From Marasmius tenuissimus (lineage: Eukaryota; Basidiomycota; Agaricomycetes; Agaricales; Marasmiaceae): 64,000 bases of DNA. This document shows, piece by piece, positions 38,735 through 63,544 of this stretch (position 1 is the stretch's first letter; every line of letters begins with the position of its first letter). The position numbers and the translations under genes were made by a program. The notes under the pieces were generated by a model. The model was not told where the DNA came from and ran no database searches. It saw only the letters and a list, made by a program, of their open reading frames with translations. The stretch lies in NCBI GenBank assembly GCA_029532415.1, contig JAQOTA010000064.1, forward strand, positions 558,001-622,000. The letters run 5' to 3'.

Positions 38735-39065
38735 GAACACAGCACAAGACCACAGATTGTCCGACGCGGATAATCTGAGAAAAATCCTTGATGTTCAGGA
38801 GAATACTGTCCGATTACTCATGAAATACAACGTCGGATATTTTTTCCGTATTTGTTCACTTTCCGTCACATTATGTTCTGAATACATGTATGATATCGTC
38901 TTATTTTCATCAAATTATCCAGCCTCTGAACGCAATACCATGGGTGCTGCCCCAGGCTCCCCTCCCGGTTCGTTGGCTTTTGGCTTTTGTACTGCAGATT
39001 TGGGCGGGTTTAGAGAGTAGAAAATAGAATGCGATTAAGGTTATTTAATTAAGTAAGTGACAGCG

Positions 39066-40777: not shown

Positions 40778-40793
40778 AGGGTTGATTCGCGTT

Positions 40794-43700
40794 TTACTCG
40801 TCTTCATCATCATCTTCGAATACCTCAGGCTCGCATGTATCCTGTAGCAAAACATATCAGTCTCCTGTAATTTCTTGTAACAACACTTACATGGTCATAG
40901 GAAACCGTAATCCAAAGATCCTTGTGTACAAAATTTGAACGAACTGGAATGAGTGCAACGGGGGCTTCAATAGCAGAGGCAGGAATGATGACTAGCGCCC
41001 CAAACTTATGAGCATACGACACGTTGATACCTAGGGTATCGGCACTAAAGATCTGCATGTCAACAGTGCAAAAACCGTATAGAAAACCACGTACTAGAGA
41101 TCCCAGGGCATTGTGGGTATTCTGTCATCCGAAACCAGAGGGCGTACTGCCAGACATACATGTGGAGGTTTAGTTGTTCCTGGTATCTTGACCATCATGC
41201 AGTACTCGATGCGAACTGGCTCACGGTGTCCTCCAGTCAGCGAGATGAGAGCGAAGCTATCAGCCTGAGTTCGCAGGTTTGACGAGCATCCATATCGAAG
41301 GCCGTTCTTGCGAATGAATGGGAGAAAATGTGTTGAGTTCTTGGCGACAAGAGGGCGTCCTGGTTGCATGGTGAATTCGGGGATCAGAGATAAATCGGGC
41401 CAGAGTTGCTGAAGATATGTAAGGAGGGTGTTGTAGAGGCATCCACTCGGGTCTTTTTCGTGAACATTTTGAGGTTTCTTGGCAAACCGCTTAGGGAGTT
41501 TAACGGAATCTGATACCAATTGTAAGTAAATGAACTCAAAAGCGACAGGTACTGACCAGTTTCTGCCTCGCTCCGGAAGATATTTAGCTGTGTCATCATG
41601 GCTCCCCGTTCTCTACCCTCACTCTTAATGATCCGGTCAATCAGTTTGCGCTCCAAGTCGTGAGCATCAGCAGGGAGAGAGAGAAGGAGCTTGTAGATCA
41701 GGTGCGTCTGAACCCAGTTCCGAAGGAGGGTAAGCTCCATACGTCCCTTGTCCTTTCCGTTATTCTTGACCTTTTCGAGCATTCCATTGAATCGTTCAAA
41801 GGCAAAAAGCCACCATCCATACAATGGGCCAAAGCGCTTGATCATCTCCGCGAAGTGCTGCGAGAGATGATGGTTGATAACGAGAGGGATACCCAGCCGC
41901 AGACAGGCACGACAATATTGAAGCATGAAGTCTTGTGCAGCACGAGCTTGACGCATTGAGATGTACCGAGTTGAGAAGAGCCTAACGCTAGTGCACAGGA
42001 GGAGACAAGCCGCATAGAGGGAGTATCGTTTGCGAGAGAACTTTGTCTTGATCTTCTCGTTGGGAGAGACTGGAGGCTCAGTGTCAGGGATGACATCGCC
42101 GGCTTGACGCCACGCAACCCAGAGTACGACAGGCGCAACTGCAATGAAGCGCCGCCATTCGTCAGCTTTGGCTAACGATTGGTTGTCTCCGAGCTATAAC
42201 TAAGTCAGCACACGAAGAATAGGGGGGTATGTAGCTCACATTTCGTGGCAGCCGTGTGATGTGAGACGGCCATAGAATCGAGTTAATACAGTCTTGAAAT
42301 CGTTGTTTTGCCGAGTCAGGACCCCCGAAACCAGAGAACATGTGTGCAGCGACTAGGACTGAAGTAAAGAAATGAGCAATGATCCCGAGAAATACGCAAT
42401 GCATGAAATCAAGAGCGGTTTTTCTACGAGGGGACCAGTTTGGCAGTAGATTCATTGTGGACCAACGAATTCCATAGTTTTTCAGGATCCACTTTTGTCG
42501 CGCTGGTGGCGCACCGGACGAACGGAAAGCATGAAAAAGCATTTCATCATCGTCCCTGAGAGGCAGGCCATCCATAAAATCATCAGTGCTGATCAAAAAG
42601 TCAGCATGATAATACGTACCAACTGAATAAGACTGAATGTTGTTGATATTGGGCATCACGACAGGGCAATATGGGCAAGGGTGAAGGTCAGCAGAATGTC
42701 CAGCCTGACCAGAAACACGTCGGGCAGCAGGGGTATCACAGTTTGTGCACATGTAGTCACCATATATGTCCTCCCGCTCATCTTGACCGTAGATGTCCAT
42801 TTCAATGCCTGAAAGAGAGTTAGAACATCACAGATAGAAAAATGATTGAGATCTTTGAGCACTCACCATTCTTCAGAATCTGCATCTCCTTGACCGACGG
42901 CTCCAGGAGGTGATTGAGCTGCTCGGGCGTAGGCTCCGATGGGCCAGGCATAATGCATGGGCAAATCACGTTCACCTGGTGAAACCGTTCACTGATGTCG
43001 AGATCGTTAATGGTTATATAGATAGGCCCTGTAGAATGGGGGCGGTTTTTGAAGATACCGAACCTGGAATCGCAGTCAGTCAAGACTCATGGAAACGAAA
43101 CAAAAAGACTGACCAATCTGTATTGAATGTCAAATGAAGCCCATACTGATGACTCGTGAGCTTGGTCGGTTCTGGTAGTTGCGGGGGGCCACTATCGCGA
43201 ACTGTCCCTCGATCCCCTACCTCTCTTATCACCCTCGTGTACTGTTGATCCCAGTCGTCGCCATCCGACATGTCCCGCATGACATAGTCAGGATCATCGT
43301 TCCTCCCGGACTGGTGCTGACGGCTATCTCGTATCTTTGCGGCAAAGCCCGGACGCAAGAAGAATCGGCGTAGAGTGTCAATGATAGATGTATGAGGGAT
43401 GAGAAGGCGAGGCGCTCGTTTCCGTTCGCCTTTCTTGTTTCGAGTTTCGTCATAAATCACTCCATTACATTCGGGCTCTTTGCATGCAGGAGATTCAAGC
43501 TTCTCAACCTCATGCGGCGTGTGATGTTTCCAGCAGGTCGGGCAAGCGAAGTACTGGATTATTGCCGAATCAGCGTCAATCCCGAGTCTTCATTTTGCAC
43601 TCTCGAGAGTACGGACAGGTCGAGGAACCTCTGGGAGTCTGCCGGCAATGAACAGGGAATCGAGCTGGGAGTTGAGACCATTCTCCGCTTGCACAATGCT

Positions 43701-44320
43701 CAATCCGCTGTAAACATTCGACATGGCAGCGTGGAGGTATGCCAACCGAACCTCTGGCTTCTCTTCAAATGCGAGTCGTTGATAAGTATCTTCAGATGTT
43801 GCCGGGAGTTCAACATCTGGATCTCGAGCCGGTTCAAAGGCTGTATCTTGACGTCCAGCAGGCAGGTGGTCTTCTCGGGGAGGTAACTCATCTTCCTGAT
43901 CTTCGTCTTCCCGAGAATCATCTTCCTGATCTGGCAATCCAGGTACTTCTATTTGGTTTGCATGATCTTCAGCCTGTGGTGGGGTATCTGTATGTTGTCA
44001 GTATGGATTTGTTGAAGAGTTGCCGGCCTCGCACCATTGTAATCATCCCAATCATCCCAGTCAGCACTAGACCCAAATTCCCCACCAACATTCACATCCA
44101 CATCTCCGAGTATATCTCTTAATTCATGTACTCCTTCCTCTTGTATCGTCTCGGGACCGGAATGTACTTCAACTTGCGGCAAGTTCTCCTTCTCTCGACT
44201 GTCGCCGTGCTTCTTTCGATGATCCCGAATAACTCTTTTGGTTTGATACTCGAATCCTTGCGCATTACGAGCGCATCGGGTACAATAGCAGGGTTCTCGT
44301 CGCGTTGCAGTGGATGCCAT
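40794..44320 (-). pseudogene. Element F transposase (Plavaka-like), one nonsense codon
   Basis: Eight exons: 44320-44035, 43987-43114, 43063-42867, 42808-42240, 42193-41557, 41509-41095, 41044-40891 and 40841-40794; 3180 nt, 1060 codons. The N-terminus has a Cys/His module CYCTRCARNAQGF...RDHRKKH. A second zinc-type module is YFACPTCWKHHTP...SPACKEPECNG. The core has ITINDLDIS, IMPGPSEPTPEQLNHLLEPS, ALDFMHCVFLGI (a likely catalytic Asp) and GPLYGWWLFAFERFNGMLEK. It would cut and rejoin the terminal repeats in the nucleus. TGA at 43590-43592 (codon 228) interrupts SAK(stop)RLGID, where CGA is likely ancestral. All introns are otherwise canonical. I rejected splicing across this codon because the following residues are coding-like. 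Confidence 0.8.
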
Positions 44321-44578
44321 GGATGGGTGTATAGGATAGTGACTGTGCAGGGTGACGTCGTATTGGTTGATCAAGGGTTTGAGAGCGCTGTACAGTTGAG
44401 ATGTCAGAAATTATTATCTAAGTCATGATTCTCAGGCTCTCGAGGCTCTCATATTTTATGAGCGAAGAATATCCATGGTGAGTAATTCAAAGCCATGATA
44501 TTGTATGAGTAACATAAGAAATCTCTGAGATATACAACATTACCCGCGCCTGATAATTTCGCGTCTTGTGCTGTGGAA

Positions 44579-46791
44579 TCAACAGTCTAAATATATGATT
44601 TTGCAGATATTCAAGCAAAATTCAAAATTTGCAATTGATTACGCCAACTTTTTGCTGCATTTTTGCTATAGCAAGTATTTAGAATGTTTTTTTGCATTTT
44701 TGGGTTGGGCAAAAGGCATATAACATGATAGTTTTAACCTAGTGATGAAGAAAAGTAGCTCGGGGTATGGTAGTAGTGACTCGTAAGGACCGGGATCCCA
44801 AAATTCACGGATATCAAGTATATGGCGATGAAAAGGGGGTTTTTTGGTAGCGGAGAAGCTAACAAATCTGATTTCGATTGAACTCGTCTTAATCTTTGGC
44901 GAGACTAGAATCAAATGCCACCTTAAGCTCGAGGTTTAATGGAGCTGACCTCGTTTGGTCCTTATCATGAACGCGTCTTGTAAGGCGACTGGCCTGAGGG
45001 CGGAAATTTTGTTTGCCTGCCATTCTCTTGCTGTCAAGTCCATTTTACACTTCAACTTCTATCATCATGTTCCCCGCTGCTCACAGCGTACTTAATGAGA
45101 CTCTCAGGTAGCTCACTCAGCTTCTGTCTCCCGCTGGCGGTCATACCTGTGTACATCATAACCGAACGAGATCTCGAGCAAGACCGACAAATGTCGTAAG
45201 ATCTCGGGAGCGGGCTAAAAATGGTTCGCGGGGATGGGAAGTATGGGGAAGCTCAGACTACGTGACAAGTTTAGAGAGATCGAACGGTCTGGAGGTACGC
45301 TCATCAAGAAACTCCATGCGTTATTCATGATCTGAATCCTTCCTACCGCCTGCAGTATTTATCGGTGTGTTTGCCACGCAAAAAGATGGCATCCAGCGTC
45401 AAAATTGTGGCGAGCGCTACCACCGTCTAGGGACCTCTTTTCATAACAAAATCAATGGGGCATCTAGTCTGCCCGATATGAAGCGATTGGTGTTTTATTC
45501 AAGGTGAAGTATCCCGATAATATCTCTTGCAATCATTTTCTGATGGTCTGCTTTAATCCGTGTAGATCTTGCAGCCACACTTACAGAATGAAAGTTTTCT
45601 TTAGTCGCCCAAATGTGATGTCCCGAGTGCTCTTAATCAAAACGAACATAAAAAATCATAGAGCAAAGGGGCCCGATTTTTATCTCGAACGTCGGGTGCA
45701 GAATTGGCCGGTAAAAGCTCCCGCCGGGAGCCTGGTCAGTTCATCCTCTTTACTTTTGATCCAACCCAGTACGGCATATCACCCAGACCAAGTTGTCTAG
45801 ATGCTTTTAGGATCCCTCGGTTTCCCTATTAAGTGGTATTTCTCATGCTGGGTTTCATTCCTGCAGGCTGTGGCGTCTCCTCCGCCTCTATAACTGCGTA
45901 CTACAGCCTATTCCGATGGGTTCAGAAGGGTTTCACCCGTGACACTTTGGCCAGAAGTACCTTGCCCAATTCATCAATTCAAATCAAAACCGACTACCAT
46001 TACAGTATGATACCGGCGTAGTTGTGGGTATGAGCCTCAGCATCTAGTGTCCCATATCACAGCTAGAAATGAGGTTCAATATGTTTATTTCCGGTACTTT
46101 GCACAACACTAATTCATTCCCCTAACCCCGCCGGCTCGGCTTCTGTTGGCCGCTGTCTCGAGTGGCTGGGGGCTTTCTTCTCCCATTCCCAAGACGACAA
46201 AACCTCTCTCTATGAACTATTTTGTAAGTCTCTATATCGGCGCAGATGTTTTATTCATTAGCACCGGCACTGATGGCTCAATATAAACAGGACTTTACCT
46301 TGAGAGCTCCTCCCCCACAATTCACGTTACGAGCATGGGATCACAAAACATATATCGGGATGTATCAGGGGCGATTCCCCCACATCCTAACGTTCTGCTG
46401 AACAATGAACGTGAACGATCATTCAAATATGTCGAGATGTTCAATCGGAGAACAAGGTTTTCTGCGCATACTTCCATTCTAACCGATCCTTTGAGCGATT
46501 CTGCTCCAACATCACGTTTTCTGTGAGTAATCAGTCGCCCGCCGTGATGTCCGACTTGTCACATTTCACTCTTTCAGCAGTGTACCGTCAGAGTCTTCGC
46601 TCGGAACCTCAATCGACACAGAACATTGAATAGGCGCTTGACTTTGGGATTTGATGTGCAGTAATTACTTCACATACATTGAGCTCTTTCAATCACGCTT
46701 CTATTAGGGCCTGATCGAGGATCAACGGGTCGACCGGGGCATGGAGATGAGGGTCGAGGGTCGAAAGCGTGTGTTCCAATCTATTAAACCT
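44579..46791 (+). other. Interval between elements F and G, with fragments of a plus-strand gene
   Basis: Possible exons: about 45360-45503 (GVFATQKDGIQRQNCGERYH and INGASSLPDMKR) after a GTACGC...CTGCAG intron, then 46335-46524 (RSFKYVEMFNRRTRFSA) joined through a GTGAGT...TTTCAG intron to about 46580-46631 (VPSESSLGTSIDTEH, stop). The exons between are not resolved and no domain is recognised. The 44.6-45.0 kb part is AT-rich with 'tttttgcatttttg'-type runs and holds nothing I can name. Confidence 0.3.
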
Positions 46792-46794
46792 TCT

Positions 46795-46854
46795 CACGGC
46801 AGAAAGGGACATTAATAACGGGTCGTTATTCTTGTTCGGAGTCTTTCAGAATCA
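46795..46854 (+). repeat. Element G left terminal inverted repeat
   Basis: 60 bp starting CACGGCAGAAAGGGAC, the inverse of 63482-63541 with nine mismatches. Confidence 0.9.
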
Positions 46855-47386
46855 GCAGTAAAACAACAAACTTAGATACTTGATAGGATACATTGGGTTT
46901 CGCAATAGCAGATTTCAAACATGATATGCATAGATTCGGGAAGAGAATAAGACTGAAAGACACGGATAGCGATACCCCGAGTTTCACGAGCGTAGAAACA
47001 TACGAAAATTTCTTCCATTTCGGGGAGAGCTTCACGCCCAATTATAAGGGCCGTGTCTAGTTGCCTGATATTCCTATAGAAACGCCGGAAATACAAACAA
47101 CTGATACCATTCAAGAAAGCTACGATTTCCTACAACGTTTCTGGCCTCCCGTTACCTTTCCTGAAACCGTAGGTTTCAGTTCTCCGAGCACCACACCTCC
47201 GCGTGAGCAGCTTGCCGCTTGGTGCATCAACGCCATCGCGCCATACTGCGCCTGGCGGCTGCTGCGCCGACGCATATCTCACTGTTACTCAGAAAGTCCC
47301 GAGGGCCCAGCTTGCCCTTCGAAGTACAAATAAGCCCAATGGAGTCAATTGAAGCTGCGATAAACTCACCGGAAGAGTCCGTTGTC

Positions 47387-50293
47387 TTACTTTCTTTCTC
47401 CGATGGCCTGGCTTGCTCTTTGTACAAAAGTGAGCTGGACACGGTAGAGAGGAGTATTAGCTGAGAGCTCACCAGATGGACCGGTAGTTTCCTTCTCCGA
47501 GTCTGAGTCCTGGCAAAGACCTGCTAAATAGGGTATATCGGACTCCTTTGCACCGAGCTCCTCCTTCGCAAGTGGATCCAGATGTCGCAAGTACCGACGA
47601 TGATAACAGCACTCCGGCAGGCTACGCGGGACGGCTTCTGGAGGTCGATCGGTGACTTTCTCGCTTCGACGGCGAATTCTGCGGGCGTGAACAGCAGTGT
47701 TAGCCTGTTGGTTTCTCTTCCTCATCTCAGAATCCAGGTCTCCCATGAGGTTGCTGACAATCCGGCGCCTGAAGCAAGGAACCGTGATGATGCGTGGGAG
47801 GTCAACGTCGTCCCTGTCGGTGTCCTCACTTGACTGACCGTCGGCACCTAAACCTTCGTTGATGGTTTGAACGGCCTTCCACTTGATCCGTTCGACCTCA
47901 CCCAACAACGAGTCCCTGAGAATCTCTTGCAGCCCGGTCTTCCGTGAGTCGTATTTCTGGCAAAAAGGAAATGAGACAAGATTGATTGTGTGAAGCAAGA
48001 AACTCACGTCGTGCCTCCACTTGTTCTGCTTCCGCATATGACCCAAAGTATACTCCTGGCGTCTCGCACGAGAGGTGGCCTCTTGAGCTGTCTCGAGCCT
48101 CTCTCCAGACTGATGAACCCGAATTCGCATTGTTTTCCATGAGTTTTGAGCCTGAGTGACGCTGATCCAAAGGCAGGCAATGATCCTCTCTGGCATCATC
48201 TCTGATTCTCCTGCTTCCTTCAACTCGGCCTGAACGTCCTTGACCATATCCTGGAGAACATGCTTGTTCCAAAGACATGTTCTCCAAGTGTCTCCGAAGT
48301 ATAGCCGGTGTCGCAGTTCACCCTTACGCTTCTGCAGTGGATCCTGTGCAGTCTCGTCGTCAACTGGCTCGTAGCTATGGAACTTGCTGAGTTTCTCCAT
48401 CTTGGTCAGTTCGAGAAAGGTGCTCCGAAGAATGCTCTGTAAGTCTGTATGAGCTGATTTCTGTAGAACATTTGTGCCGACTTACCCTGACATTGCTCTC
48501 CTCATCGCTGCCCATACTACCAAACACCGCTTGGGCCAACTTCTTGTCGCTTGCAGGAGTACCCGGCTTCGAAGGCCTCTCATGTCTCTTCCTCTTGGGC
48601 GTTGCGGAACTACGACGACCGGAGGGAGTGGGAGAGGTACCCGGAGAGCTCGAACTGCTCTGGGAAGAGGAGGACGTCTGGGCTTTGACTAGTTCCGCCG
48701 TCATGACCTTGACAGCCTCGCACATGGCCTGCTGCACGGTTTGGGTAATCAACGATGGGATGTCTGGGTCACCATCCCCTTCATTGTCGGCGTCAGCCAT
48801 GGAGGTATCCTCGTTGGTAGACGGTGAAGTGGGTTTGCGTTTGGAGGTGGCTGCTGGCTGCTTTGCCTTACGGCGAAGCATGCGGATTTCGGATTCTCGT
48901 TCATCCTAAGCCAGGGGTTTCAGCAACAGGTACGGTCCCGTTAATTAACTGACGTACCCGTTCCCGAACCGCTTCATCTCGCTCTGAGCGCTGTACTTGA
49001 TTGTTGATGATAGTTCACTAAACAACATAGGGCTACGAACCAGTTTCTCGAGTTCCTGAGAAGAATATGAGATGAGGTATACAAGAATGAACGAAGAATG
49101 CGACATACACTCCGAGTATCGTTGGCGTGAGTATTGTTGGTTCGAACTCTTTCTTCCTCCTGCAAAAGAGACATGAATCGTCATGCGACTGGGCCGGTGA
49201 GTACTCACCATCTTCTTGAGCGTCTCTTTACACCTCTGAAGGTCAAGCGCCATGTCAGTTGCCTACAAGGTGAAGTGAGTATTGAGAAAATACCATAAAC
49301 GGCAAGACACGCACCTGTTTTTTGATCTCAGTGGAGTCTTTCTGTAGTTGTGAGTGCTCCGCTTGTAAAGTGTTCCAAGCCCTGATGGCTTCGTCCCTCT
49401 CAGACGACTATAAACCCGTCAGAATACCACAGGAAAGAATGAACTAGGACGGGGCTCACTAGGTTATTAACCTGTTAGGAACTGTTAGTGAGAATGAATG
49501 AGGAGACTCGCTGCAATAGAAGACTCACAGTCCGATTCACGCCATCTTCCGCGATAGCATCGTCGACCTCGTTTTCCTCGCGCTGCTCTTCAAATCTAGT
49601 AAGCTATCAACTCGCGTTAGAGAGCTAGTGACCAAGGATCATGGCATGGCGTACGAGAGCGTTAAATTCATCTCGAAGTGACATCGAGTCCTGCTGGCTT
49701 CAATTCAGAAGATCTTGCAGAGCGAGGTTTTTTTCCACCAGCTCTCGATAAACCTTCATAGATGTCAGAACCCAGTCGTGAAGTGCCAGGAGTGGTAGCG
49801 TACACCAGTGGTCATGTCCACCTGAGGGACAGCGGGGGTGGCGAGAGAGGACTTGAGATTTTTAAGTTGTTCCTCAATTTGTAGGTAGCCTTGCTCGACC
49901 TGATACTTCTGCTGCTCGAGAGCGCGGCTTTTGTCACGTTCCTAAAGACGGCTTAGACAAAGATCGAGCAAAAAGATCATGGCCATACCGCCTCAAGTTC
50001 GTCTTCAATACTCCTCCTCTTTCCACGTTCCTAGGCTACAGGTCAGAGAGTAAAAACAACGAACCATGAGAATGGCTCACCTCGTCAAACTTTTGCTGGG
50101 AAGGATTCGTTACCGCCCGGAATTTGTCTGGTCTCTGGCCGTGGCGACAACGCCCCGGATGTGAGCTAGCATTGTGAGGTTCTGATGGCGAGCGTGAGCA
50201 TGAGCGTCGGCCCAGGTTGGAGCGAGAAGAACCAGCTTCTAGGTCCTGCTGAGAGGTGGTGACCTGGGATCTCCATGACATGATATTCATCAT
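47387..50293 (-). pseudogene. Element G coiled-coil protein, many small exons, one nonsense codon
   Basis: Starts MMNIMSWRSQ at 50293. A chain of tiny exons with 45-55 bp introns follows, each nearly pure coiled coil (ERGKRRSIEDELEA, ALEQQKYQVEQGYLQIEEQL, LVEKNLALQDLLN, RDEAIRAWNTLQAEHSQL, LQRCKETLKKM). A larger exon (about 48905-48486) has a Ser-rich and basic region TPKRKRHERPSKPG. The final exons (48436-48008 and 47956-47387) are basic and charged (RHRLYFGDTWRTCLWNKHVL). The intron 47957-48007 is 51 nt and in frame. A TGA at 49700-49702 interrupts LLN(stop)SQQDS, where CGA is likely ancestral. Exon boundaries between 50.0 and 48.9 kb are tentative. By position and composition it parallels the companion gene of element F, but I see no clear alignment. 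Confidence 0.6.
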
Positions 50294-51684
50294 GTTGTCG
50301 CTGGGGAGTCGTTACAAATCGTTGGAGAAAATGAGCGTTTGGGTATCTGGCCTGCAGGAGAGTACAATAGAAAAGAAGTGGGGATTAGTCGATGATTGCG
50401 GACGAACAGTCTAAATATCAAACCTTGAACAGTCAACTGGATGACGGTGTGGTAGGACGCCCTGCGCCTTCACTCTTTCTCTCCTATCTGTTCACTTTCT
50501 CTCTTCATACATGTTTCACCATATCAACACACTCGATCCTCTCTCACTTCCCTTTCCTTCACTTTGATACAAAACACTCCTTACTGTCTTTTTCTCACAT
50601 GTTTCACTAATTTCCTATCTATCCCTAATTCCCTATCCCTCACACACGTATCATTCATCCCTAATCCTCCTACACCCTCCTGAGACCTATCTGTCTACTT
50701 CATACACCTTCCACACCCATACATGTTTCATTCAAACACCCCTCTACGTTTTATTTTCTTTTCAATTTCTCACTTCCATTTTTCTTACCCGCTTTCACCT
50801 TCGTTTCCGATTAACAGAACCTCCTATCCCGATGTCCGCTCCACCCCTTCCTGCACCGTCCGCCCAACGGTTGAGAGGCCTAGCCCACCTCCTGCATGGA
50901 TCGAAACGCCAGGTGTCAAGCCGACTAACGGAGAGGGGACTATGTTATCGATTTGGGGCCTGCGAGGCTCACGACACGTTTCATATATTAATTATTTTGT
51001 TGTTTCAGCGGTTTGTATAAACACTGGACCTAGTCCAGGACAATAGTATTCGATTTTTCCCCATATCTTGTCTCGCTGTCTCTCCGTTACTGTACGGATC
51101 GTACTCTAAGTCTACCGTGACTACTATCTCATCTCCTCCTCTCTCGTTCCTCATCTCAGCCTTACCAACGACCATTTACGTCTCAACGGTGAACCAGCCA
51201 TTCCTCCATCAACGGCTGATAGGATCCCTTCGTAAAAAGACAAAAAGGCCAGCGTAAAGTCAATCAAAAGGCGTAAAAGTGTATCAAAAGGTTAATAATC
51301 ACAATAGACAGCGTGGATCGAAAGGTTGATAGACAATAGATAGCGTTGACAGGGGTTTGACGCTTCAACGTGGGTCCTTGCCCCTTGTCTCGACACGCGA
51401 CGTGCGAACACCAGACACATGATTCTCTGGACAATTCGCATCTTTGAGGTTGCTCCGAGGTTCATATGCCCAGGTAGTAATATTTCTACGAAAACAAAAA
51501 AAGGTGATGTACTATGAGATTGTATCGTATGGGCTTGTAAGTAGTATCATGGGATCGTATTCAATCTATGTGTATCAGTTTAGGTATCTTTGTCCGTCTC
51601 TGCTGGAACCGCGCAAGCAATGGAGTGATGCTGTATATTGAGCGATAGTCAGGAGAAGGTTCAATGCGTCGCGCAAGTGAAAAC
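50294..51684. other. Gene-free spacer in element G with a pyrimidine-rich plus strand
   Basis: Between two minus-strand genes. From about 50460 to 50830 the plus strand is strongly C/T-rich (ctctcctatc, ctctctcacttcccttt), so the template upstream of the coiled-coil gene is purine-rich on its sense strand. From 51240 to 51360 there are reiterated 'caaaaggcg', 'caaaaggtt' and 'agacaatagatagcg' motifs. No reading frame is convincing. Confidence 0.45.
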
Positions 51685-52129
51685 TTACATTCGGCCAATG
51701 TTACGGGCCTTACGAGCATCATCTCCCTGCAAGTTCACGACTGCGCCTGTGTTCCCCTTGGCGATCCTCAAGATTAAAAGATCTCCGTTGATCCCTAGGT
51801 GCTGGTTCACTGGCAATCCGCGATGTCGCTGGAAATATATCCGAAACCTCACGCCGCGATAAACGATGTCAATATCGTGGATGTAAGGCTGGACGGCGGT
51901 GTCCGTGAATCGGTGTTCAATGAGTGGAGTGCGTGCTGCCGTTCGTGATTTGGAGCCGGAAGATGAAACAACCGAGACTCGAACGGTGCCAGGAGATTGG
52001 GCGACTGGAATTCTGTATCCTCGGACACAGAAGAAAGCATTGGCCTGGGGGAAATTGTAAGCGATCTCAAAAAGCGATAGGAGTGGCCTCAAGACTTACG
52101 TTGGGGAAGTTGCGTGGTGTTCGTGGCAT
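51685..52129 (-). CDS. Element G small protein, 129 residues
   Basis: Two exons, 52129-52100 and 52044-51685 (390 nt), joined by a 55-bp intron (GTAAGT...CCCCAG). The protein starts MPRTPRNFPN and continues FFCVRGYRIPVAQSPGTVRV, has a segment VYRGVRFRIYFQRHRGLPVN and ends LLILRIAKGNTGAVVNLQGD plus a basic tail. No named domain, signal or membrane helix. The start is chosen because only this ATG is in frame through the splice; an upstream ATG at 52157, made by a 28-bp tandem duplication, is out of frame. A family role in the transposon is inferred from location alone. Confidence 0.6.
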
Positions 52130-52156
52130 TGGGGAAGTTGCGTGGTGTTCGTGGCA
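52101..52156. repeat. Perfect 28-bp tandem duplication at the start of the small G gene
   Basis: Two identical copies of a unit starting ttggggaagttgcgtgg (52101-52128 and 52129-52156). Each carries an in-unit ATG on the minus strand. As 28 is not a multiple of three, the new upstream ATG is out of frame. Confidence 0.95.
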
Positions 52157-52192
52157 TTGTAAGCGGTAGGTCAAACGAGTGGATTGGGTTCG

Positions 52193-53026
52193 TCAGAAAT
52201 TCGTGAGGATGAGACAGCCGGCTGTCACTTTGGGAGGGAAGAGGATACACGATCGAGCACTGTCTTTAAACCCAGTGCCTCCGACAGAATGATGGCTCCA
52301 TATGGAGCTTCGCAACAATAGAATCTGGCCTGGGTATTCGGACGAAATGAAAGACAAAACGTTCTTATTGTGATAGGCAGGCATGGTCATCTGATCACTT
52401 GAAAAATTTGGTACACTCAGGCTTGTGCATCCCTGGCTTCGTTCCTGCGAATCCTTGCGCTCCTTGTGTTCTTCACGCTTTTCAGCTGCTCGCAAATGAC
52501 AAACTTCGCACCCCAGTCGTTCTGATGGTTTTGCAACTCTTTGAAGGTTTTTGTAAGCTAGAAAACAATGAGCCGGGGTCATACTGGAGAACAGATCAAA
52601 CGGTACCTTGTCTACAGCTTTTTGACGCGCGTCAGGGTCCTGTTCACCCAGAGACAGTTCGTCGTTCAGGTCTGCTCTAATTATATCCTTGGCTTTTGTC
52701 TGAACAATTGTGAGCATGATTTCCGGGCTTTGAATGATATTACCTACCCTCATGGACGCTACAACAGGCATTCCCCATCCTGAGCTGGCTAGTGAAAACT
52801 CCAGTGGCTGGCATATTAGCACCGGATCAGCGGTACGAGTGGGCCCCGCCTCTCTATCCTTATCTTCAGGTAGCGGTGCCAAGGGCGACGTTGGGCACGA
52901 TGTGAGGTCCGAGTCAGGTTGCGTGGTCGTCTCATTTGTGGCAGCGGCGGAGGATTGTGCTGAAGTAGACGCAGTGGGTGCTGCTCGACGCAGGGAGACT
53001 CGAATAGGAGGTGGAGTAGGTGAGCG
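52193..53026 (-). CDS. Element G helical protein of unknown function, start unresolved
   Basis: The minus frame is open from 53026 (after a TGA at 53027-53029) to the stop at 52193. Up to 277 codons are available, but no good ATG lies near the 5' end, so an upstream exon or a mutated start is likely; the first in-frame Met is in WGMPVVASMR. The N-terminal part is Ser/Thr/Ala-rich (TASTSAQSSAAATNETTT). The middle is charged and helical (AKDIIRADLNDELSLGEQDP) with MTPAHCFLAYKNLQRVA. No domain recognised. It is the first gene of the minus block and faces the WD40 gene across about 350 bp. Confidence 0.45.
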   Translation of the reverse strand, partial: RSPTPPPIRVSLRRAAPTASTSAQSSAAATNETTTQPDSDLTSCPTSPLAPLPEDKDREAGPTRTADPVLICQPLEFSLASSGWGMPVVASMRVGNIIQSPEIMLTIVQTKAKDIIRADLNDELSLGEQDPDARQKAVDKVPFDLFSSMTPAHCFLAYKNLQRVAKPSERLGCEVCHLRAAEKREEHKERKDSQERSQGCTSLSVPNFSSDQMTMPAYHNKNVLSFISSEYPGQILLLRSSIWSHHSVGGTGFKDSARSCILFPPKVTAGCLILTNF

Positions 53027-53377
53027 TCAACGCATTGTTGGATGCGGGTATGGACGTGGACGTGGCTTTTGCAGTAGATCCTCGTGCAGCGCAATCTTAC
53101 GTCGGGGTGCTGGGAGGTACATGGTCGCAAAAAGAGGAATTACTTTCGGGCGGCGAGCAGCTTTCGGAAAAGAGAAGTTGTGATCCTGAATCAAGTGGAA
53201 GCTGGGTGCTTTATGGGGAATGAAAGAAGGACTTCCTATTGTGGATCACGGGGCCAAATACAACGACTTTTGTTCTCTTGACGCCGAAGTATTACCAGTT
53301 GCTATGAGTTTCAAAACAATAGGCCTATTCTTTATAATGAACAAGGAGATTGAAGCTTCGACGAAAACGAACTCACC
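53027..53377. promoter_or_regulatory. Divergent intergenic interval of element G
   Basis: Separates the minus block from the plus block. No long frame continues across it. It is the only place where a shared promoter for the two gene sets could lie. 'tattctttataatga' at 53327-53341 is a TATA-like string about 40 bp before the WD40 start. Function is inferred. Confidence 0.35.
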
Positions 53378-54914
53378 ATGTCCCCATCGACCACTCTCTC
53401 CGAAACAAGCGAAAATGGCCTGTACAACTTACGCCTTCTACTTTCCGGACATTCCGGCGCTGTCGCCTGTGTAGCTGCTCATCCTGATGGGACGTTCGTC
53501 GCCACTGGAGGTAAGGGAGTTGATGTATGGTCTTATTTAGGATTAACGTCTATGCAGGGGAAGAAGGGACTAGAATATGGGACCTTAGAACGGGCCTCTT
53601 GGTCAACAGTCCCACCGGAGCCGGAGATCGCGGGATAACAACAGCAGTGGTTTTTATCACCAAGAGAGACGGTGCGGACGATGCAATCGCGTTCGGGACA
53701 GATGACGGTTACCTGTGTATATGGAAGAGGGGGAGCGATGAGAAAGAAGTGGGTGCATCATAGAGCAGATCAACTCAATGATACTGACGATGTACAGTTC
53801 GAAGAGATCTTCTCAAGCCGCCTCACGGGAGGCCAAGATGGGCAAGAGATATCCGCTATGGCCTTTGATGCCAGTTCAAGTCAACTGGCGGTGGTTCACC
53901 GGGCTTCTGTGGTCCACAGATTCTTCGTTGACGCAGCTATGATACCTCATAGCATGAAAAGTTGCGGCATCCCACACCACTGGCCTCAAGCCGTCGCATT
54001 CGGACAGACGGGCGTGAAAGGGATCGAAATATGGTCTTTTGGGCGCGAAGATGGCGAGATGTAAGTCATGAATTCGCAACAGTCGAAGATAGCACACACC
54101 TATTTCGTTGCAGACATATAATGGACGAGAGTGGGAGTATAATAAAGACCTGGCCAACGGCATCTGTAATGTGAGTGATTTGTTGGCTCATACTTCGGAT
54201 CCTACTCACCTCGCTTCCAGTGGCCACGCTGTATTGAGTGTCCGCGACGATACGATTGTGTTGGATGATATAACCCAGGGTGTGGCCCTCTACAAGCTCA
54301 CAGGCAGAAGCCGAATCAAGACCTTCCCTGTTCTGATTCAGAAAAAGCACAGGAGTCGCAACGTTGCTTTCCACGATGGTGGTAGTAGCGTCCTGAGTGG
54401 TAGTGACCATGGTATCGTCTACATTTTCGACAGGCGAACGGGTGATATCACCGACACCATCGATATCGGGGTCAAAGACTGGGTACAGTCAATTACGGTG
54501 AGCACTCGAACAAGCGCAAAACAAACGGTAAAACTCACGCCATTTCCAGTCAATCGTGATTGACGGATCGCCGTCGATCGTCGTCGGACGAACAGGAGAG
54601 AACATTGGTCGCACAAAGCTCCAGGTATGGACGAAAAGGTCTCCAAAGAATCCAACGGAATCATCAGAGCCGATCAAGCGAGTAGCTACTATCTTCGAAA
54701 GAGGACGGTGGATCCTCTGCACTATGCTGGCGGTGCTTTTCATCCTACAGAACGTTCTGGTGAGTTCTAAATCTCGGAACTGTTTCAATTGATGCACTAA
54801 GATACTGGATAGGATCTCCCAATCCGTAGGTGGCTCAAGAGGGTGTTCCGGTCGATGATAGCCCCTCATCTGGACAGAGAGGACGACGAGAACTCTAGTT
54901 ATGATTATCTGTAA
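53378..54914 (+). CDS. Element G WD40-repeat protein with C-terminal membrane helix, 410 residues
   Basis: Seven exons: 53378-53510, 53558-53748, 53798-54060, 54114-54170, 54221-54497, 54550-54759 and 54813-54914; 1233 nt, 411 codons, with introns of 47-53 bp and canonical ends. WD40 blades show LSGHSGAVACVAAHPDGTFV, then GEEGTRIWDLRTG, DDGYLCIWKRG, GIEIWSFGRE, DHGIVYIFDRRTG and TKLQVWTKR. Near residues 361-377 is a hydrophobic helix WILCTMLAVLFILQNVL followed by a 33-residue basic then acidic tail, which fits a tail-anchored protein. WD40 propellers are binding scaffolds; the partner is unknown. The frame is fully open, so it is the most intact gene of the element along with the 129-residue one. 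Confidence 0.85.
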
Positions 54915-55697
54915 ATGCCATGAGCAATTGGCCGTTACCCGTTTTAAAAACATACCACTTGTTTTTTCGTCTTTTGAATGTACGGCCACTACTGAGGATC
55001 TTCAGCTTCATTCTGGGGTCTACGATGACCTAGCATATCGAGAGTCAGTATAATCATATCGATGCGACGTGAGGGACCCTGCGCTATCGTTGGGAATGCC
55101 TTCACGCCCCCATGCCGTCAGCACTGAGCGTGAGGTCCTCTGTGCTTGGCTTAACTTTTCTTTTCTTTCAAGGCTCTAGTCTCTCAATGGTACTTCGTTA
55201 TTGTAATCAAATTTATCTACTTTACTGACATTTCTCGATACTCACATCATTGAGTAGCCCATTGCTGGCGGCGATGATGAACGTCGGGTTGAAGGGGTGG
55301 CAGGCTGTGCTGTTGAGTCGCACGGTTCAGTTGTGCCGGCGAACTTGGGGAGGAAGCAGCACATGACTGGTCTATGTACCAGTCATGTGCTGCTTCCTCC
55401 CCAAGTTCCAGCGAGTAACGCTGCCGCCTTGGAGACGCCTGCACAGCTTTATGCTTGACGCGGTACCACCACCATCAACGCTCTACGGTACGTCTACATA
55501 CTACCTGAACCATGCCAATACCTTGCTGTAAATAATAGTAACGTATACTAGCAATAACATATCAAGGATTATTACGAGGACATTGGTTCAGGATTCAATG
55601 GCAGTCCAAAATGAACTTCTAGCTATTCTGTGTTGAATCTTTGAGGGATCGACGCTAACAGCGTTTTCTATTGTCTTTTAGGAACAAAAAGGCTAGA
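54915..55697. other. Spacer between WD40 and Spt5-like genes, containing a long hairpin
   Basis: Intergenic, with no convincing coding frame. Holds the perfect 31-bp inverted repeat at 55341-55408 (separate entry). Presumably contains the WD40 terminator and the Spt5-like promoter. Confidence 0.6.
55341..55408. repeat. Perfect 31-bp inverted repeat with 6-bp loop
   Basis: Arms 55341-55371 (gaacttggggaggaagcagc...) and 55378-55408 (...gctgcttcctccccaagttc) are exact reverse complements around the loop 'ctatgt'. The pairing ends sharply at both outer edges. If transcribed it would form a stable stem long enough for small-RNA processing; that is inference. Confidence 0.95.
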
Positions 55698-58494
55698 ATG
55701 TCCACCGTGAATGCTGTAGCGTCTACGAGCCAGCCTTCTCGAACTACTCGTCAAAGGAATCCCGATGCGTTGCGATTTTTGGACTTGGAGGCAGAGATAG
55801 ATCGTGACGATGAAGACAACGATGGAGACAACGATGGCGGGAGTTTAGGTTCGTACTCGCAATCCTCTACTTGTGGCCTTGACTCATGTATTCGGTCTTC
55901 TAGCTGGTTTTTTGGTCGATGATCACCATGAAGAGTACGGAACTCGATTCTCTCATCAAGCAATCAATTCACGACTGCAGCAGGAAGACCTAACTGGGGA
56001 CAATGCAAGACGCAGTCACCAGGGAAACGTATCGAGGGACCATGCAACAAACCGAGGATATCAAGATAACAACAACGCCGTCCTCGATCATATTACACCC
56101 CCGAAACTCTGGCTAGTTCACTGTAAGGTACCGGTTCTGGTTCATATCCTATCTCTGTACTCACAAGTTTGTTCTCTAGGCCGGAAAAGAGTTTGATGTC
56201 GCTCACTAGGCTATCGCCCATGCGGTAATCAAGAAAAGTGTGGCCATCACTTCCCTCCACTATCGCAAGGATGGAGACGGTGCTCTCTATTTGGATACAG
56301 AAGACCCCCTCGCAGCTGCCAGGATCTTGAGCAAATGCGCCTTCATCCAGCACCATCGAGATAGTCCGTACGACAGGGTTGACATGCATCAACTAGCAAG
56401 TCCCACCGAATCCAGGCTCTCACTCCAGCTCCCTCCTGACGATCATCCCCTCGTGGTTGGGGCTTGGGTGCGTCTCTCGAATCCGAAGTTCAGGAAACCA
56501 AAGCCAAAGTCCACCCAAATGCTGCCTTCCGACCCCCACGACCACGTCCCAATAATCCCCATTCAAAAGCGATCTTATTATCATGGTGCTCTCGGGCTTG
56601 TGCTCGACGATCTGGGGAATGACGAGTTTACCATCCTCCTAGTCCCTCGAATCGACATTGCCCTTCTCAACGCTGGTTTCTCCATCTCAGAGAACCTGAA
56701 ACAGGGTTCAATCGACTACAAGCTCGGTAGTCAGATCGCACTGGCCCCCGCATTCCTTGGCCCCGATTGTAAGAAGATCGTCGACAAGTTGTCCGCGCAG
56801 GGTTCATGCTTTGAGAGTGGCCTCCGACTCGAAACAGTCGGGAAAGAGCGTTTGGTTCCAATTATGAATCCGCCGGCGTACATGGAGATGAGACTCTTCG
56901 AGACAAGCAACCATCCTGGGGTCAGGAAATATTTCCCGCCCGTGTTGGAATGGGTCTTTGGAACAGGTGAAATGGTGGTAGACATGATAGGAGGGCATCG
57001 GGGGGTTATCAGCTCAGTGATGAAACATGGGGTAGAGGTCGAGGTTTCGCTTTCGGAGGGGGTGAAAGAGCTCCGAGCTTTTGGATGGGCTATACGCAAA
57101 ATATTCGACGCCGGGCAATATGTACGCCATGAAAGCAGCTCAGAGGGTTGGGTTGTTGGGAATGACGGTGAGCGTGTTTGTTTTTGGCAGGGGGGCGAGG
57201 TGAGATTCACCCTTCCAATTCTATATACCTGCTGACAGGTGTCTAGAGTTCTATACCGTACGCTGCGCACCGAAACTCCTTAAGACGAGTTGAGCCGTCT
57301 TTCTCTGGAGTGACTGCCCTAACGCAGCGGCACGAAAGTATGCTTATGGAGTCACTTAGGCTGTCGAACAAGTCGCAGGACCAGATTACAAGGACTCTAG
57401 CGGTGTTGAGCCAAAAGGTTGGCTACGACCCGCAACTGTTGACCCCCCACCAGCTGGATCAGAGTATACGCTCCACCAACATGTACCACAATCCGTGGAA
57501 ACACTGGAGTGTTTGGGTCTTCAAGGGAATGCACCGAGGCCGCTATCACGTTCTCGATTTGGTCGTTTCGAAGGACACGAAAAGCGGGTTGAAATTACAG
57601 GTTAGAACAGACATTGTGAACGCCTCGAGAACGGTTATGGTTGATTATGATCATGTTGTTGACGCAGAGTAGGTGACCCCATTCATTCTCACAGCTGTCT
57701 ATTAACGCGCTATACACGTCAGTTTGCTACTCCCACTTCACATTCTGCATCCACTGCCGCCGACTCTTGCACCTCCTCCGGGCTATATTCATCCCGGTCT
57801 CGATACATTGAAGAGGCACCGCATGCAAATCGACTTCCTTCAAGAGGAAGAAGGGACTGTGAAACGTGCTGCCACCCCACCCCCAGAACCTGCCACCCCA
57901 CCACCAGAACCTGCCTCCACCGAGCCAGGCCCATGGGCTCCCGAAGCCGAGCAACCTAGTCTCATGGTTCCCGCCCCAAGTTTAGCAGACGACTGGTGGA
58001 GGTCGACTCATCCGAGCCACCACCAGTTCTATGAATTGGATGGTCTGAGCGTAGACCAAGTCCAATTTCAAGTCAAACTCGAAGGTGTCGTTCCGGAATT
58101 TAAGAACAAGGCTTACACGCACAACGCCAAATCGTCGAAATGGTTCTCCGTCTACTTTCGGCAGGGTAGCGGGAAGCGTATGCTAGCGATGGAATGGAAT
58201 CATATCAAGGCTTGTGTACCACGCGCGATGGTCATCTACCCTCAGCACCCCAACAAAAAAACCAACCTCCCGTTCATTGTTCTTCGTGGCGAGCTCAAGG
58301 GTTCTGTGGTGACAAAGGTGGCTGGGGTAGGGATGGACTTGTTTGTCCTGCCAGTCATTGCCTCGACCGGGATCGTAGATAACGGTCGGGAACCGTTCAA
58401 GGTCGCCGGTGAGGACTGCTGTGTTATCAGACTACAGGACAGTGCTCATAACATATGGCGTCAGTTCAAGTATACACCTATGCCCAGTACTTAG
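55698..58494 (+). pseudogene. Element G Spt5-like protein (NGN and KOW-like motifs), one nonsense codon
   Basis: Five exons: 55698-55848, 55904-56127, 56180-57199, 57247-57668 and 57723-58494; 2589 nt, 863 codons. The N-terminus is acidic (EIDRDDEDNDGDNDGG), as in Spt5. An NGN-like segment starts at PPKLWLVHCKAGKEFDVAH (about residue 118). KOW-like motifs lie near residues 219 (GAWVRL...YYHGALGLVLDD...LVPRI), 389 (VDMIGGHRGVISSV), 556 (FKGMHRGRYHVLDL) and 792 (VLRGELKGSVVTKV). A Pro-rich linker (TPPPEPATPPPEP) precedes the last one. Spt5 itself clamps RNA polymerase II during elongation; this copy is diverged and its role is unknown. TAG at 56207-56209 (codon 135) replaces a likely CAG. Apart from that the frame is open. 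Confidence 0.7.
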
Positions 58495-58938
58495 AAACGC
58501 GTATATAATGCCACGTATCTTGTCTCCTTTAAACGCACCTACCTACCATCGACTTGTATCGATTATTGTACTTTATTGTATACATATGATTTCTCGATAC
58601 GACGTTGGCGTGTTATTGTCTCAGTTGCTAAGGGTGAGGTATTACTAATGACTAGGGCAGAACAGGACAGACAATCGGGGCAGAGAGATGAAATAAACAA
58701 AGCGAACTTCAAAGGGCTCGCAGTTGGTGAGTACTGAGTCTCTTCCAGAATCCCAGAACACTGACCGAGATCTCGCTTAGGAACCCCTCGATGAAAAACA
58801 AGGGCGGGAGGCGTCGGCGTTGTTATTGTTTCGAGGTTCTGGTGGGTGACAGGACATTTGTCCCAATTTGGGGAGGCTTTTTTGTACTCACTCTGTACTT
58901 ATAGTGGCCTCTCATCCCGCGTAACAAACCCAACCACG

Positions 58939-61900
58939 ATGATATCTTCTCTGCTTAGCTCACTACAAACATTGAACCTAACGCGAGATGACGCCTCAGA
59001 GAGGGCCCCTTCTCCTGCGTCGACTTCTCAGGTGGGTTTCAAATTCTACGCCTACAAACCGGTTGACTGACGTGCAGACGAACCTATAGAAAACAGAGAC
59101 AAGTTCCACCTACAGCTTAAGGGCTAGGATGGAAGATTTGGACCTCAACGACGACATTTCGCTCCCCGGTTCCTTCGAGTCTTTCATAGTGAGCATCACA
59201 AGCTTATTGTTGATGTAGACCCAACTAATCCGGTGGCTTTATAGAGCCCTGTAGCCTCGCGGCAACCCAGAAGGGCTGTCCCTCCTCAAGCATCCTACCC
59301 TGTGCGTTAGTTGCCACCCCGTTACGTGGATCCAACTGACTTATCTTGATCAGCTTCACGAGTCGGACTTGGCCCTTGAAACATTCCTTACCGCAGCAAC
59401 TTTGACATCGACCGAGAATATGCCGAGCCACCACCATAAGCTGTTCTCATCATCCGCCGAATTCCACCGCACTGCTAGCGAGGGCTTACCGGAGAAGCTA
59501 CACGACTTAACGATTCACGATGTAGTACAAAGCGTCGAGCGTGTCGTCAAGGACACGTACCAGAAAGCCTTTCGCCCAAGTGACCGATTTGGACGACTCT
59601 CGGTCCATGGATTCGAGCAGGCCAAAGCCCCATCACCCTCTATGTCTCATGATGCCACCCCAAAGCCCCCAAAGTATGAACTTGACGAGGTTCGGCAGAT
59701 GGAGCTGCTTTCTCAACAAATTGAGGAACACCATCGTCGAGTTCTCGACAAGAATCTTGGCCGACAAACTCAGGTTGAACAGTGCCGGGTACTGGATGAA
59801 GCACTCGCCTTTGCGAAGAAGGGGTGGACTCTGGTAGGGGAAAGTGTAGAGCGCCAGAAGGAAAGGGAGCAGAAAGCTGCGAAGAGAGAGAGGATCAAGG
59901 GAGTTTCTAGCCCTCAGGGCTCATCCCCTCCAATAGGCAAGCTGCAGGAGGGTCGAGAACGGGTCAGGGAACGAATTCGGAGCCTACAGGCCAAGGTCGC
60001 CGTACTGTATGCGTCAAAGCCAACACCTGTTGATGCAGGTAAGTATGAACGCTTGGCTTGATATTCTTCAAGAGCTCACTCTCCCGTAGATTATCTTTAC
60101 GACCCACCCATTGAACAGCGCCATGAGATTCACCAGGTCATGATCATCCTTGCCGTCGTCTGCAACATGGTCATTGGCTTGTCAACGACTCAATGCGATT
60201 TCATCATCGGCATGGCGTTGATCTTAGTGAAGATGGCCATGTCAGCTGGCAGACCTCTCGATACCGTTGGTGAACTGGAGCAAGACAAAGTGAAGTCGGC
60301 CATGCCGAAGTCTCTCAGAGAAGCCTTACGTGACTTCGATATTGATGGTCGCTTTCAACTCTTCGCAGCTTGTCCACGCTGCCACTACACGAACCCCTCT
60401 CTATCATTCGATTCCGACTTTCCCGAATTCCCTGAAACATGCTCCAACGAAATCGTCAGTGATGTCGAAACCCGAAGATGCGATGAGCCTCTTCTACAGT
60501 GCCGTCGTGACAACTCTACCCAGCCCATCAAGCCCTACCTTGTCGGATCCTTCAAGGACTATTTAGCTCGATGCGTTGCGGACCCAACCTATCTCTCCCA
60601 ATCCCTCACAACACTTTGTGAAGCCCACAAAGCTCATTAGGGCGGCATGGAACCTGACGGCGTTCGGAATGTCTTCGAGGCCGAGTTTTTCAAGGACTTT
60701 CGTGGTCCCGATGGACGCTTGTTCTCAGACTGTGAGGACAAGATCCGCCTCGCCTTTTCTCTTAATATGGACTTCTTTCGTCCTCATGGTATGCGTGTTC
60801 GTGGAAATCAGGATTCCATCGGTATCATCTCCTCCGCCAACCTTGCTCTCAGCCCAGCTATCAGGTACCTTCCGGAATATATGTTTATCGGCGGTATAGT
60901 TCCCGGTCCAAAGCAGCCATCTCACGAAGAGACCGACCACTACGTCCGGCCCATCATAGAACAGTTCGCCGAGGCATGGCGACCAGGTATCAGGTTGTCC
61001 CGAACAGCTGATCCAGCCTCAGTGGGCAAGGGTGCACTCGTAGAATGCGCCGTCCTTGTGGCAGTCAACGACCTTCCTGCGGCTCGAAGTCTTGCCGGAA
61101 TGCAGGGCCATACCTCCATGAAGTTCCTTTGCTCTGTCTGTAAGGCTAGCGGCAAAGAGCAGATCTTCTGTGTTGATCATAGTCGTTGGGAGCGGCGGGA
61201 CTGTGCAGAGCTACGTCGAATGGCTGGATTATGGAGGGACTCTCGTTCATACGTCAAGAGAGAGAGGATATACGAAACGTATGGGGTTCGCTGGTCTTCG
61301 ATGTGGCTGCTAGAGTACTGGGATCCAACACGGATGCTCGTGATCGACAGTATGCATTGCATTCTGGAAGGTCTCGTTCACTACCACTGTCACCATGTCT
61401 TGCGGCTTGATGCAGCTCAGCCGAAGCTGAGCCCGGAAGGCTTGGCATATGTGTTTGATTGGCCATGGATTCCGTATGACGACCCTTCAGTCCCTGGTCT
61501 ATACAAGGTGCCGCCGAACCATGTTTCAAATGTCTACAAGGTCCATGAGATTCTATCCCTAGCGCTAGAGGGAGAGAAGTCCCTCACATTGCGTCAGGTT
61601 TGGCGACGGTTGGACCGCCAGACCACCCTCGATGCTCTACGATTTGTGGTGTTCAGCCTCGAGATTTCGGATAAACTTTACGTGCGGGAGGAGGTCTCCC
61701 AACAGTATTTGGCCGAGATCAAGCCAAAGAAGTCCAAGCGCGGCGGGGATGATGCTCCTGTTAGGTTTCCGGTTGGGCGACCTGCTACGATGAAGGCTCA
61801 GTATATCGCATTACTTATTAACTGGGTAAGTCTTGAATCTATCCTTTCTCATTTCCCCGAAGCTGACTTCATCTCCAGCGTCTGAACCGGGATTTTAAGT

Positions 61901-63039
61901 CTCAGGCTGACCTCATCCCGACTAGTACTCCAGAAACCCTCAACTACATTCAACGCGTCATCAAGGACACAGTCGTTCCATCTTGGGTCAACTCGGTGCC
62001 CAAGAATTACGGAGAAGCTAAGGCTGGGACACTTAAGGCCGACGAATGGAGGACTTTAAGTAGCATCTACCTTCCTATCGCTCTCGTTACCCTTTGGGGT
62101 GACTCCAACGGTGCCGCACCCCCATCAGATTCTTCGGACGAAGGTCTACTTTTCAAGGCTCTTGATCACACTATGGCCCTTTTCCAAGCGACCATCATTG
62201 CCTGCCGGTATACGATGACTCCCTCGCGCGCTCGAGCATACAGAGACTACCTCTCCCGCTGGGTCACGGATCTTCGAAGACTCTACCCGTTCACTCGGGA
62301 AGGCCGAGGTAGACCCAACATACACACCGCTAGCCACTTGTATGATTTCCTGTTGCTCTTTGGGCCTGTCATCTCTTGGTGGTGTTTCCCTTTCGAGAGA
62401 TTGATTGGTGCTCTGCAGAAGGTCAATACCAACGAGCGTGTAGGAGGTAAGAGCTTCCATGCCGCATGCTCGAAATTCCGTCTGACACTATTCTTCTTAG
62501 GTGTACTCGAACGTACTCTGTTCATGTCACAAGCTCGTACTGCAAATCTTCGACGTTGGCTTCGGCGGCCAGACTGTCCCGAGGTCATCAAAGAAGTTGA
62601 ACAGTTATTCGACAAATCATTCATTCCCGCAAACACCACCGAACAACTCCCAGAAATCACCGAGATGAAGAGTGCCCAACGGGCGTATGTCCATCACGAT
62701 GGCGTCAAGTTCTCCCCAAAGTCAACTCACGCCGGCAATTCGACTATCATCTATCGACCATCACCAACATCTAGGCCAGTCGCAGGTCAAATCGAGCTCA
62801 TCGAGAATGTAAAGACCATTAATGGCCCTGGCGTCCGTCTCCATGTCCGACGCCATATGCCCTTACCCGGAATGAGCTACGATCCGTTTCGCAGATATCC
62901 ACATTTTCATGCCACTACGTACTCTTCCCGTATGAGCCCCACCCTCGATGAGATTGACATAGAGGATATCATTTCGCATGCAGCTCGTTTTGACTTCTCA
63001 GGAGAACGTTGTGTATATGTAAACTTGTCTAGGGATTGA
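58939..63039 (+). pseudogene. Element G transposase (Plavaka-like), 1,258 codons, one nonsense codon
   Basis: Seven exons: 58939-59031, 59090-59188, 59245-59301, 59354-60038, 60090-61825, 61879-62446 and 62501-63039; 3777 nt, 1259 codons with stop. The N-terminal 300 residues are acidic and coiled (QIEEHHRRVLDKNLGRQTQV). A zinc-type Cys pair is FAACPRCHYTNPS. The core has VFEAEFFKDFRGPDG, RVRGNQDSIGIISSANLAL, GGIVPGPKQPSHEETDHYV, LCSVCKASGK and the likely catalytic MLVIDSMHCILEG, then ASHLYDFLLLFGPVISWW and FPFERLIGALQKVNT. These match the F transposase block by block. TAG at 60638-60640 (codon 495) replaces a likely CAG just before MEPDGVRNVF. The 54-nt intron at 62447-62500 is in frame and could be overlooked. 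Confidence 0.82.
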
Positions 63040-63481
63040 AATGGGTGAGGGTCATTTTTGGAGGCAGGTGGCAGTACGCGTAATGGGGTGATAGCGGGAC
63101 GGGCGTTAACGCGGCCAGCGGCAAGTCGTTCACGCAGGGGCATCGTGCCAGAAGCGATGAAACCGTACGTTTCTTGAAAGGTATCGGGAGCTCAGAAATG
63201 TGCTAGGAAACCTCAGATTTCGCAGGCGGCATCAGTAGTGTGGATTTCACACGGCTCTGGAGACGTATCAGGTAGCTCGAAACAGTAAATTCCCTTGGCC
63301 CCGAAACCGATCCGGAAAGGGAAAGTATCGCTTTGTTTTTCTATGTTTTTGAAGGCCAGAGTATCAGTGCCTGTCTCTTTTAGCGCTATAGCGTTCGCGA
63401 ATCGCTACACATCATGTAGAAAATACGGAATCATGAAATTTAATTATTCCTGATACTTATCTGGTTTTGGTATTCTACGTA

Positions 63482-63541
63482 TGATTCTGTAAGGTTCTGA
63501 GCAAGAATAACGACCCGGTATTAATGTCCCTTTCCGGAGTG
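63482..63541 (-). repeat. Element G right terminal inverted repeat
   Basis: Read on the minus strand it starts CACTCCGGAAAGGGAC. Followed by TCT target duplication at 63542-63544. Confidence 0.9.
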
Positions 63542-63544
63542 TCT

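Follow-up and report, generated by a model that had tools for sequence, protein, structure and literature searches.

Cut-and-paste transposons are usually pictured with one or two genes. For EnSpm elements, one or two open reading frames (ORFs) are given as usual in PMC6431247, which also cites Kojima 2013 for EnSpm families of 16-20 kb with 4-5 ORFs in the red alga Chondrus crispus. Among fungi, active CMC elements have been described in Cryptococcus (PMC12810828), and the largest element in an M. oreades transposon library is about 42 kb (PMC9674265). According to Kojima 2025 (PMC12730594), PlavakaA elements end in TGT..ACA and PlavakaB elements in CATCA..TGATG, while CAC..GTG ends with a 3-bp duplication are consistent with EnSpm; some fungal EnSpm transposases nevertheless resemble those of Plavaka. 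Target duplications are 8 bp for Zisupton (PMC12730594) and 4-8 bp for KDZ1-3 (PMC12810828). Giant cargo elements of another kind, the Starships, have already been published from the basidiomycete Tremella fuciformis (PMC13066641).

Structure of the element

We analyzed a window of 64,000 nt (the whole stretch of DNA under study, from contig JAQOTA010000064.1 of Marasmius tenuissimus) and, within it, a 16.7-kb element at 46795..63541. The initial annotation had described a single large transposon with terminal inverted repeats (TIRs), a 3-bp duplication and six divergent genes, and both the ends and our gene models support this description. On rechecking, its coordinates, the tip identity and the TCT duplication proved exact. 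The features, in window positions, are:

46792..46794, no strand, target duplication TCT, left copy
46795..47234, no strand, left TIR, starting CAC; its outer 60 bp match the right end at 51/60
47387..50293, minus strand, coiled-coil/helical gene; many small introns, model of about 720 aa, no stop in the model
51561..52129, minus strand, small gene (earlier given as a 129-aa protein); 135 aa in the script-made model
52193..53197, minus strand, 277-aa gene, degraded; no start assigned
53198..53377, no strand, divergent interval separating the 277-aa gene from the WD40 gene; left boundary approximate
53378..54915, plus strand, WD40 gene; 7 exons, 410 aa, no stop
55341..55408, no strand, perfect inverted repeat of 31 nt with a 6-nt loop, between the WD40 and Spt5-like genes
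55698..58494, plus strand, gene labelled Spt5-like earlier; in-frame TAG at 56207-56209
58939..63039, plus strand, EnSpm/CACTA-type transposase; 7 exons, hand model
63102..63541, no strand, right TIR, ending GTG
63542..63544, no strand, target duplication TCT, right copy

The models agree with the mirror gene order noted earlier, as the left three genes are all on the minus strand and the right three all on the plus strand, diverging between about 53198 and 53377. The WD40 model matches the annotated M. tenuissimus protein PM082_019711 without a difference over 410 aa, and the protein carries a hydrophobic segment at its C terminus. Three of the six genes contain in-frame stops. In addition to the TAG in the Spt5-like gene, which an alternative splice path could avoid, the 277-aa gene has a TGA at 53027-53029 (minus strand) and the transposase a TAG at 60638-60640. 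The latter is codon 495 of 1258 and lies upstream of the conserved core; in the alignment, relatives read through this position.

The TIRs proved longer than first claimed, extending over about 433 bp (46802-47234 against 63534-63102; 65.7% identity over 437 columns; E 4.6e-23 in a comparison inside the element). Searching the right 440 bp against the 71-Mb genome, an approach blind to short matches, recovered solely the two ends of this element; a further copy with long ends on both sides was thus not detected. With the left 120 bp as query, short elements appeared as well: three 163-bp MITEs that were absent from the matches of the right-end search. Two of these are 94% and 96% identical to the copy on contig C61 (C19, C32, C39 and C61 are contig labels within this same genome). 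Their tips are about 90% identical to those of the element over about 40 bp, and 3-bp duplications flank two of the three (GTT and ATG), the flanks of the C19 copy being without one. A search for further copies of the ends, as proposed in the initial annotation, therefore yielded short MITEs with the same tips in this genome, but not a second long copy.

The other check proposed there, a search for empty sites, succeeded within this one strain. A query built from both flanks (200 bp each) around a single TCT gave 14 scored matches in the genome. Two were the flanks of the element itself, and the remaining 12, 72-76% identical, all lay on the element's contig. Ten of these 12 spanned the junction. 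All three of the spanning matches that we inspected (121 bases each) were continuous through the junction without an insertion, contained a single target triplet (TCG, TCG and TTG), and aligned better to flanks with one TCT than to flanks with two or none. These empty sites are paralogous repeats at about 73% identity on the same contig, not alleles.

The Spt5-like segment

The name given to the gene at 55698..58494 was not confirmed. No NGN or KOW family matched at E up to 1 in the 341-aa piece scanned against Pfam (the stretch before the stop lay outside the scan). A single-sequence search of the PDB with the protein returned just one unrelated match (E 0.97), and a profile search returned none at E up to 10. 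The resemblance to Spt5 is thus one seen by eye alone, and we use "Spt5-like" as a label. The gene is a distant relative (32-42% identity) of a gene family that is amplified in the same genome and whose members are highly identical to each other.

A less likely reading is that the region combines two elements, side by side or one inside the other, and that the Spt5-like segment (about 55000-58500) inserted separately. Consistent with this, no Spt5-like match was among those listed at C39, the second locus described below, and nothing Spt5-like lies between the joined parts of a fused Mycena protein, as far as that protein was covered. Also in its favor, the members of the related family are highly identical to each other, and none of the listed transposase matches lies closer than 20 kb to any of its 10 other loci. 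Against it, none of the 25 longest of the 33 repeat pairs in the window is an inverted repeat bounding the segment, and the identity of our gene to the family members is low. A separate insertion of this segment would be compatible with our main explanation for the rest of the element.

Accessory genes at related loci

The next-best transposase in the genome lies on C39 and is 52% identical over query positions 2-405; its 682-aa frame had no Pfam match at E up to 0.1. Relatives of several of the other genes adjoin it: one of the helical gene (28% and 34% over two stretches; 25% overall), one of the 129-aa gene (731865-732167; 40% over 100 aa, with one in-frame TGA) and one of the WD40 gene (53% over 121 aa). 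A 277-like frame near 730464-731445 gives a weak match (39% over 44 aa; E 1e-4 in a single comparison). In the models, the internal exons of the WD40 gene are equal at both loci (191, 263, 57 and 210 bp), while the fifth may differ by one codon. With respect to the transposase, the accessory gene block at C39 is inverted.

Within 721001-743000, TIRs could not be established for C39. In a blastn self-comparison of this interval, no inverted repeat was credible. Ungapped, the right tip matched best at 740940-740984 (28/45; next best 22), where a right end would be expected. Local alignments scored 17 and 19 on the right side, not above the shuffle maxima of 21 (200 shuffles); one on the left side scored 23, against a maximum of 22 (60 shuffles).

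A partial copy, C32:529318-532274, matches window 52184-55129 over 2.95 kb at 88.6% identity and contains the 277-aa and WD40 genes only. Its changes look like methylation-type decay: C>T and G>A make up 176 of the 255 substitutions, and CpG dinucleotides fall from 174 to 61. A WD40 exon query had only three matches in the genome, each within such a locus or copied from one, and revealed no separate host WD40 gene.

The WD40 gene at C39 has a 393-aa gene to its left, for which we found 47 matches in the genome. Thirteen of 33 transposase matches have a 393-aa-gene match within 12 kb, where about 0.5 would be expected by chance, although both lists include fragments and near-identical duplicates, making independent events fewer than 13. 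Multi-gene elements of the EnSpm/CACTA superfamily may thus be common in this genome.

Links in other fungi were read from protein records, tags and contig sizes alone. Trimmed to 722 aa, the helical model shares 78% identity over 99% with PQX77_003024 of Marasmius sp. AFHP31, whose tag is two away from that of a WD40 relative, PQX77_003026, each on a 19,002-bp contig; no row named AFHP31 was among the 119 transposase relatives listed (8000 candidates scored). In Tetrapyrgos nigripes, WD40 protein D9758_016104 and transposase D9758_016105 (49% identical to that of the element) have neighboring tags, each on an 87,511-bp contig. Two fused proteins join such genes: P0078 of Mycena rosella combines WD40 (31% over 321 aa) and transposase (35%) parts related to those of the element, and P0152 of T. 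nigripes combines a WD40 part (43%) with a relative of the 393-aa gene (56%).

We considered whether a small CACTA element, consisting of the transposase and helical genes, captured an unrelated block, in which case the WD40, 129-aa and 277-aa genes would travel as passenger cargo. The C32 copy, which carries the 277-aa and WD40 genes alone with no transposase match reported there, fits this explanation, as does the inversion of the block at C39. The linkage across species is also thin, since the T. nigripes pair is the sole match in contig size between the 51 WD40 and 119 transposase rows listed, to which one fused model can be added. However, the block adjoins a 52%-identical transposase at C39, WD40 occurs near a transposase in two other genera, and the WD40 query points to no host source, so that we regard passenger cargo as unlikely. 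Because they recur beside the C39 transposase, and WD40 recurs elsewhere, at least three of the extra genes (helical, 129-aa and WD40) look like accessory genes of a transposon lineage, with functions that are predicted. The earlier description of the extra genes as cargo or accessory is thus partly borne out: three of the five clearly recur near the C39 transposase and a fourth weakly, while "cargo" is only partly right.

Transposase and superfamily

The downstream piece of the transposase matched a single Pfam family, PF02992 (Transposase_21; E 9.6e-10; 38.4 bits against a cut-off of 28.6). The upstream piece matched none, and PF18759 (Plavaka), which we take to be present in the Pfam library copy used, did not match at E up to 0.1. 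Precomputed PF02992 labels occur on 84 of the 119 listed relatives. In the transposase alignment we picked by eye a C(2)C motif and candidate D, D and E positions, a placement that is tentative.

The initial annotation had called the element Plavaka-like. Judged from the ends and the Pfam domain, EnSpm/CACTA fits better: the termini are CAC..GTG within inverted repeats, neither TGT..ACA nor CATCA..TGATG, the duplication is 3 bp and the transposase has the Transposase_21 (tnp2) domain. What an autonomous EnSpm/CACTA element would have, an uninterrupted transposase, is lost here through the TAG. A Plavaka element with unusual ends is very improbable: Plavaka and EnSpm do share one wider clade (PMC12730594), two of the 119 listed relatives bear a precomputed PF18759 label and Plavaka-B duplications may also be 3 bp, but CAC..GTG ends fit EnSpm according to that paper, the domain found is PF02992 rather than PF18759, and the Plavaka-B ends belong to the adjoining element F instead.

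Element F (38683-44747) has CATCA..TGATG ends of Plavaka-B type, 28/40 identical; a clear target duplication was not seen. As some fungal EnSpm transposases resemble those of Plavaka (PMC12730594), the earlier comparison of motifs with element F was not unreasonable.

Discussion

We conclude, with a probability of roughly 0.85, that the locus is a large cut-and-paste EnSpm/CACTA (CMC) transposon with putative helper genes, and that the present copy is now probably non-autonomous, since its transposase frame is cut before the catalytic core.

A model that accommodates these data is that the DDE transposase would pair and cut the ends and insert the element with a 3-bp stagger. The helical coiled-coil protein may assist it, perhaps as an end-binding partner like TnpA, an analogy that comes from plant En/Spm. 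The membrane-anchored WD40 and 129-aa proteins, and perhaps the 277-aa protein, would be element-encoded helpers, and the Spt5-like gene may have entered the lineage of this copy later. A bolder extension is that Marasmius, Tetrapyrgos and Mycena share a conserved multi-protein transposition cassette in which the tail-anchored WD40 protein works in transposition, for example as a nuclear-envelope tether; we find this rather doubtful.

Should a lineage indeed have retained several accessory genes across deep divergence, the machinery of some eukaryotic CACTA elements would be larger than the usual picture allows. The helical, 129-aa and WD40 set, including a membrane-anchored WD40 protein, provides concrete genes for testing. 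The window also illustrates a risk of mis-filing, as Plavaka-B-type and EnSpm-type ends occur on elements 2 kb apart.

This gene set is not described in the available text of PMC6431247, PMC9674265, PMC8290104 or PMC12810828, and we found no description of it in the parts available to us of the open-access literature on Plavaka, CACTA/EnSpm and giant transposons. Among known systems, Starships depend on a tyrosine recombinase captain, whereas the transposase here is of another kind, and the KDZ group (Zisupton, Kyakuja, Dileera) makes duplications of 4-8 bp, against 3 bp here. PlavakaA and PlavakaB are likewise fungal, with a transposase of a related clade and duplications of 2-3 bp, but differ in their ends and Pfam model. 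TET-carrying fungal EnSpm elements (PMC12730594) also have an accessory gene, but no TET/JBP family was among the Pfam matches of the pieces scanned here. Fungal EnSpm/CACTA (CMC) elements share the CAC..GTG ends, the 3-bp duplication and the Transposase_21 core, and the present element differs in its 16.7-kb length and in the five genes that it carries besides the transposase. In size and ORF number, the features by which we liken them, rather than gene content, it resembles the EnSpm families of C. crispus; large multi-ORF EnSpm elements are thus already known, from a red alga.

Relatives of the transposon's genes elsewhere in the genome

Copies of the Spt5-like gene family at loci L043, L045-L048, L050, L054 and L057 are about 85-99% alike in their matching pieces, which reach 3.7 kb and take in flanking DNA. 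This similarity points to a recent amplification of the family in the genome. The gene beside the WD40 relative at the second locus is also repeated, and 13 of the 33 transposase matches have a match to it at most 12 kb away.

L073:1621-2802, gene for a 393-aa protein, 47 matches in the genome

On the contig carrying the transposon, G000:C32:529318-532274 is a copy of the 277-aa/WD40 gene pair (88.6% identity) in which CpG is strongly depleted. By eye, a Copia-like frame follows it. The transposon's own flanks are part of a repeat found at 12 places on this contig, to which its scored matches are confined.

Other features in the window

38683-44747, element F, ends CATCA..TGATG, Plavaka-B type
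55341-55408, perfect inverted repeat, 31 nt, loop 6 nt
1193-1841 and 34057-34625, inverted repeat pair, 76-80%, about 32 kb apart

Within element F, six-frame pieces gave no strong Pfam match, nor could a clear target duplication be made out. One of its minus-strand frames weakly matches our transposase (38% over 45 aa), and one on the plus strand appears helical on visual inspection. The widely separated repeat pair is possibly a further element.
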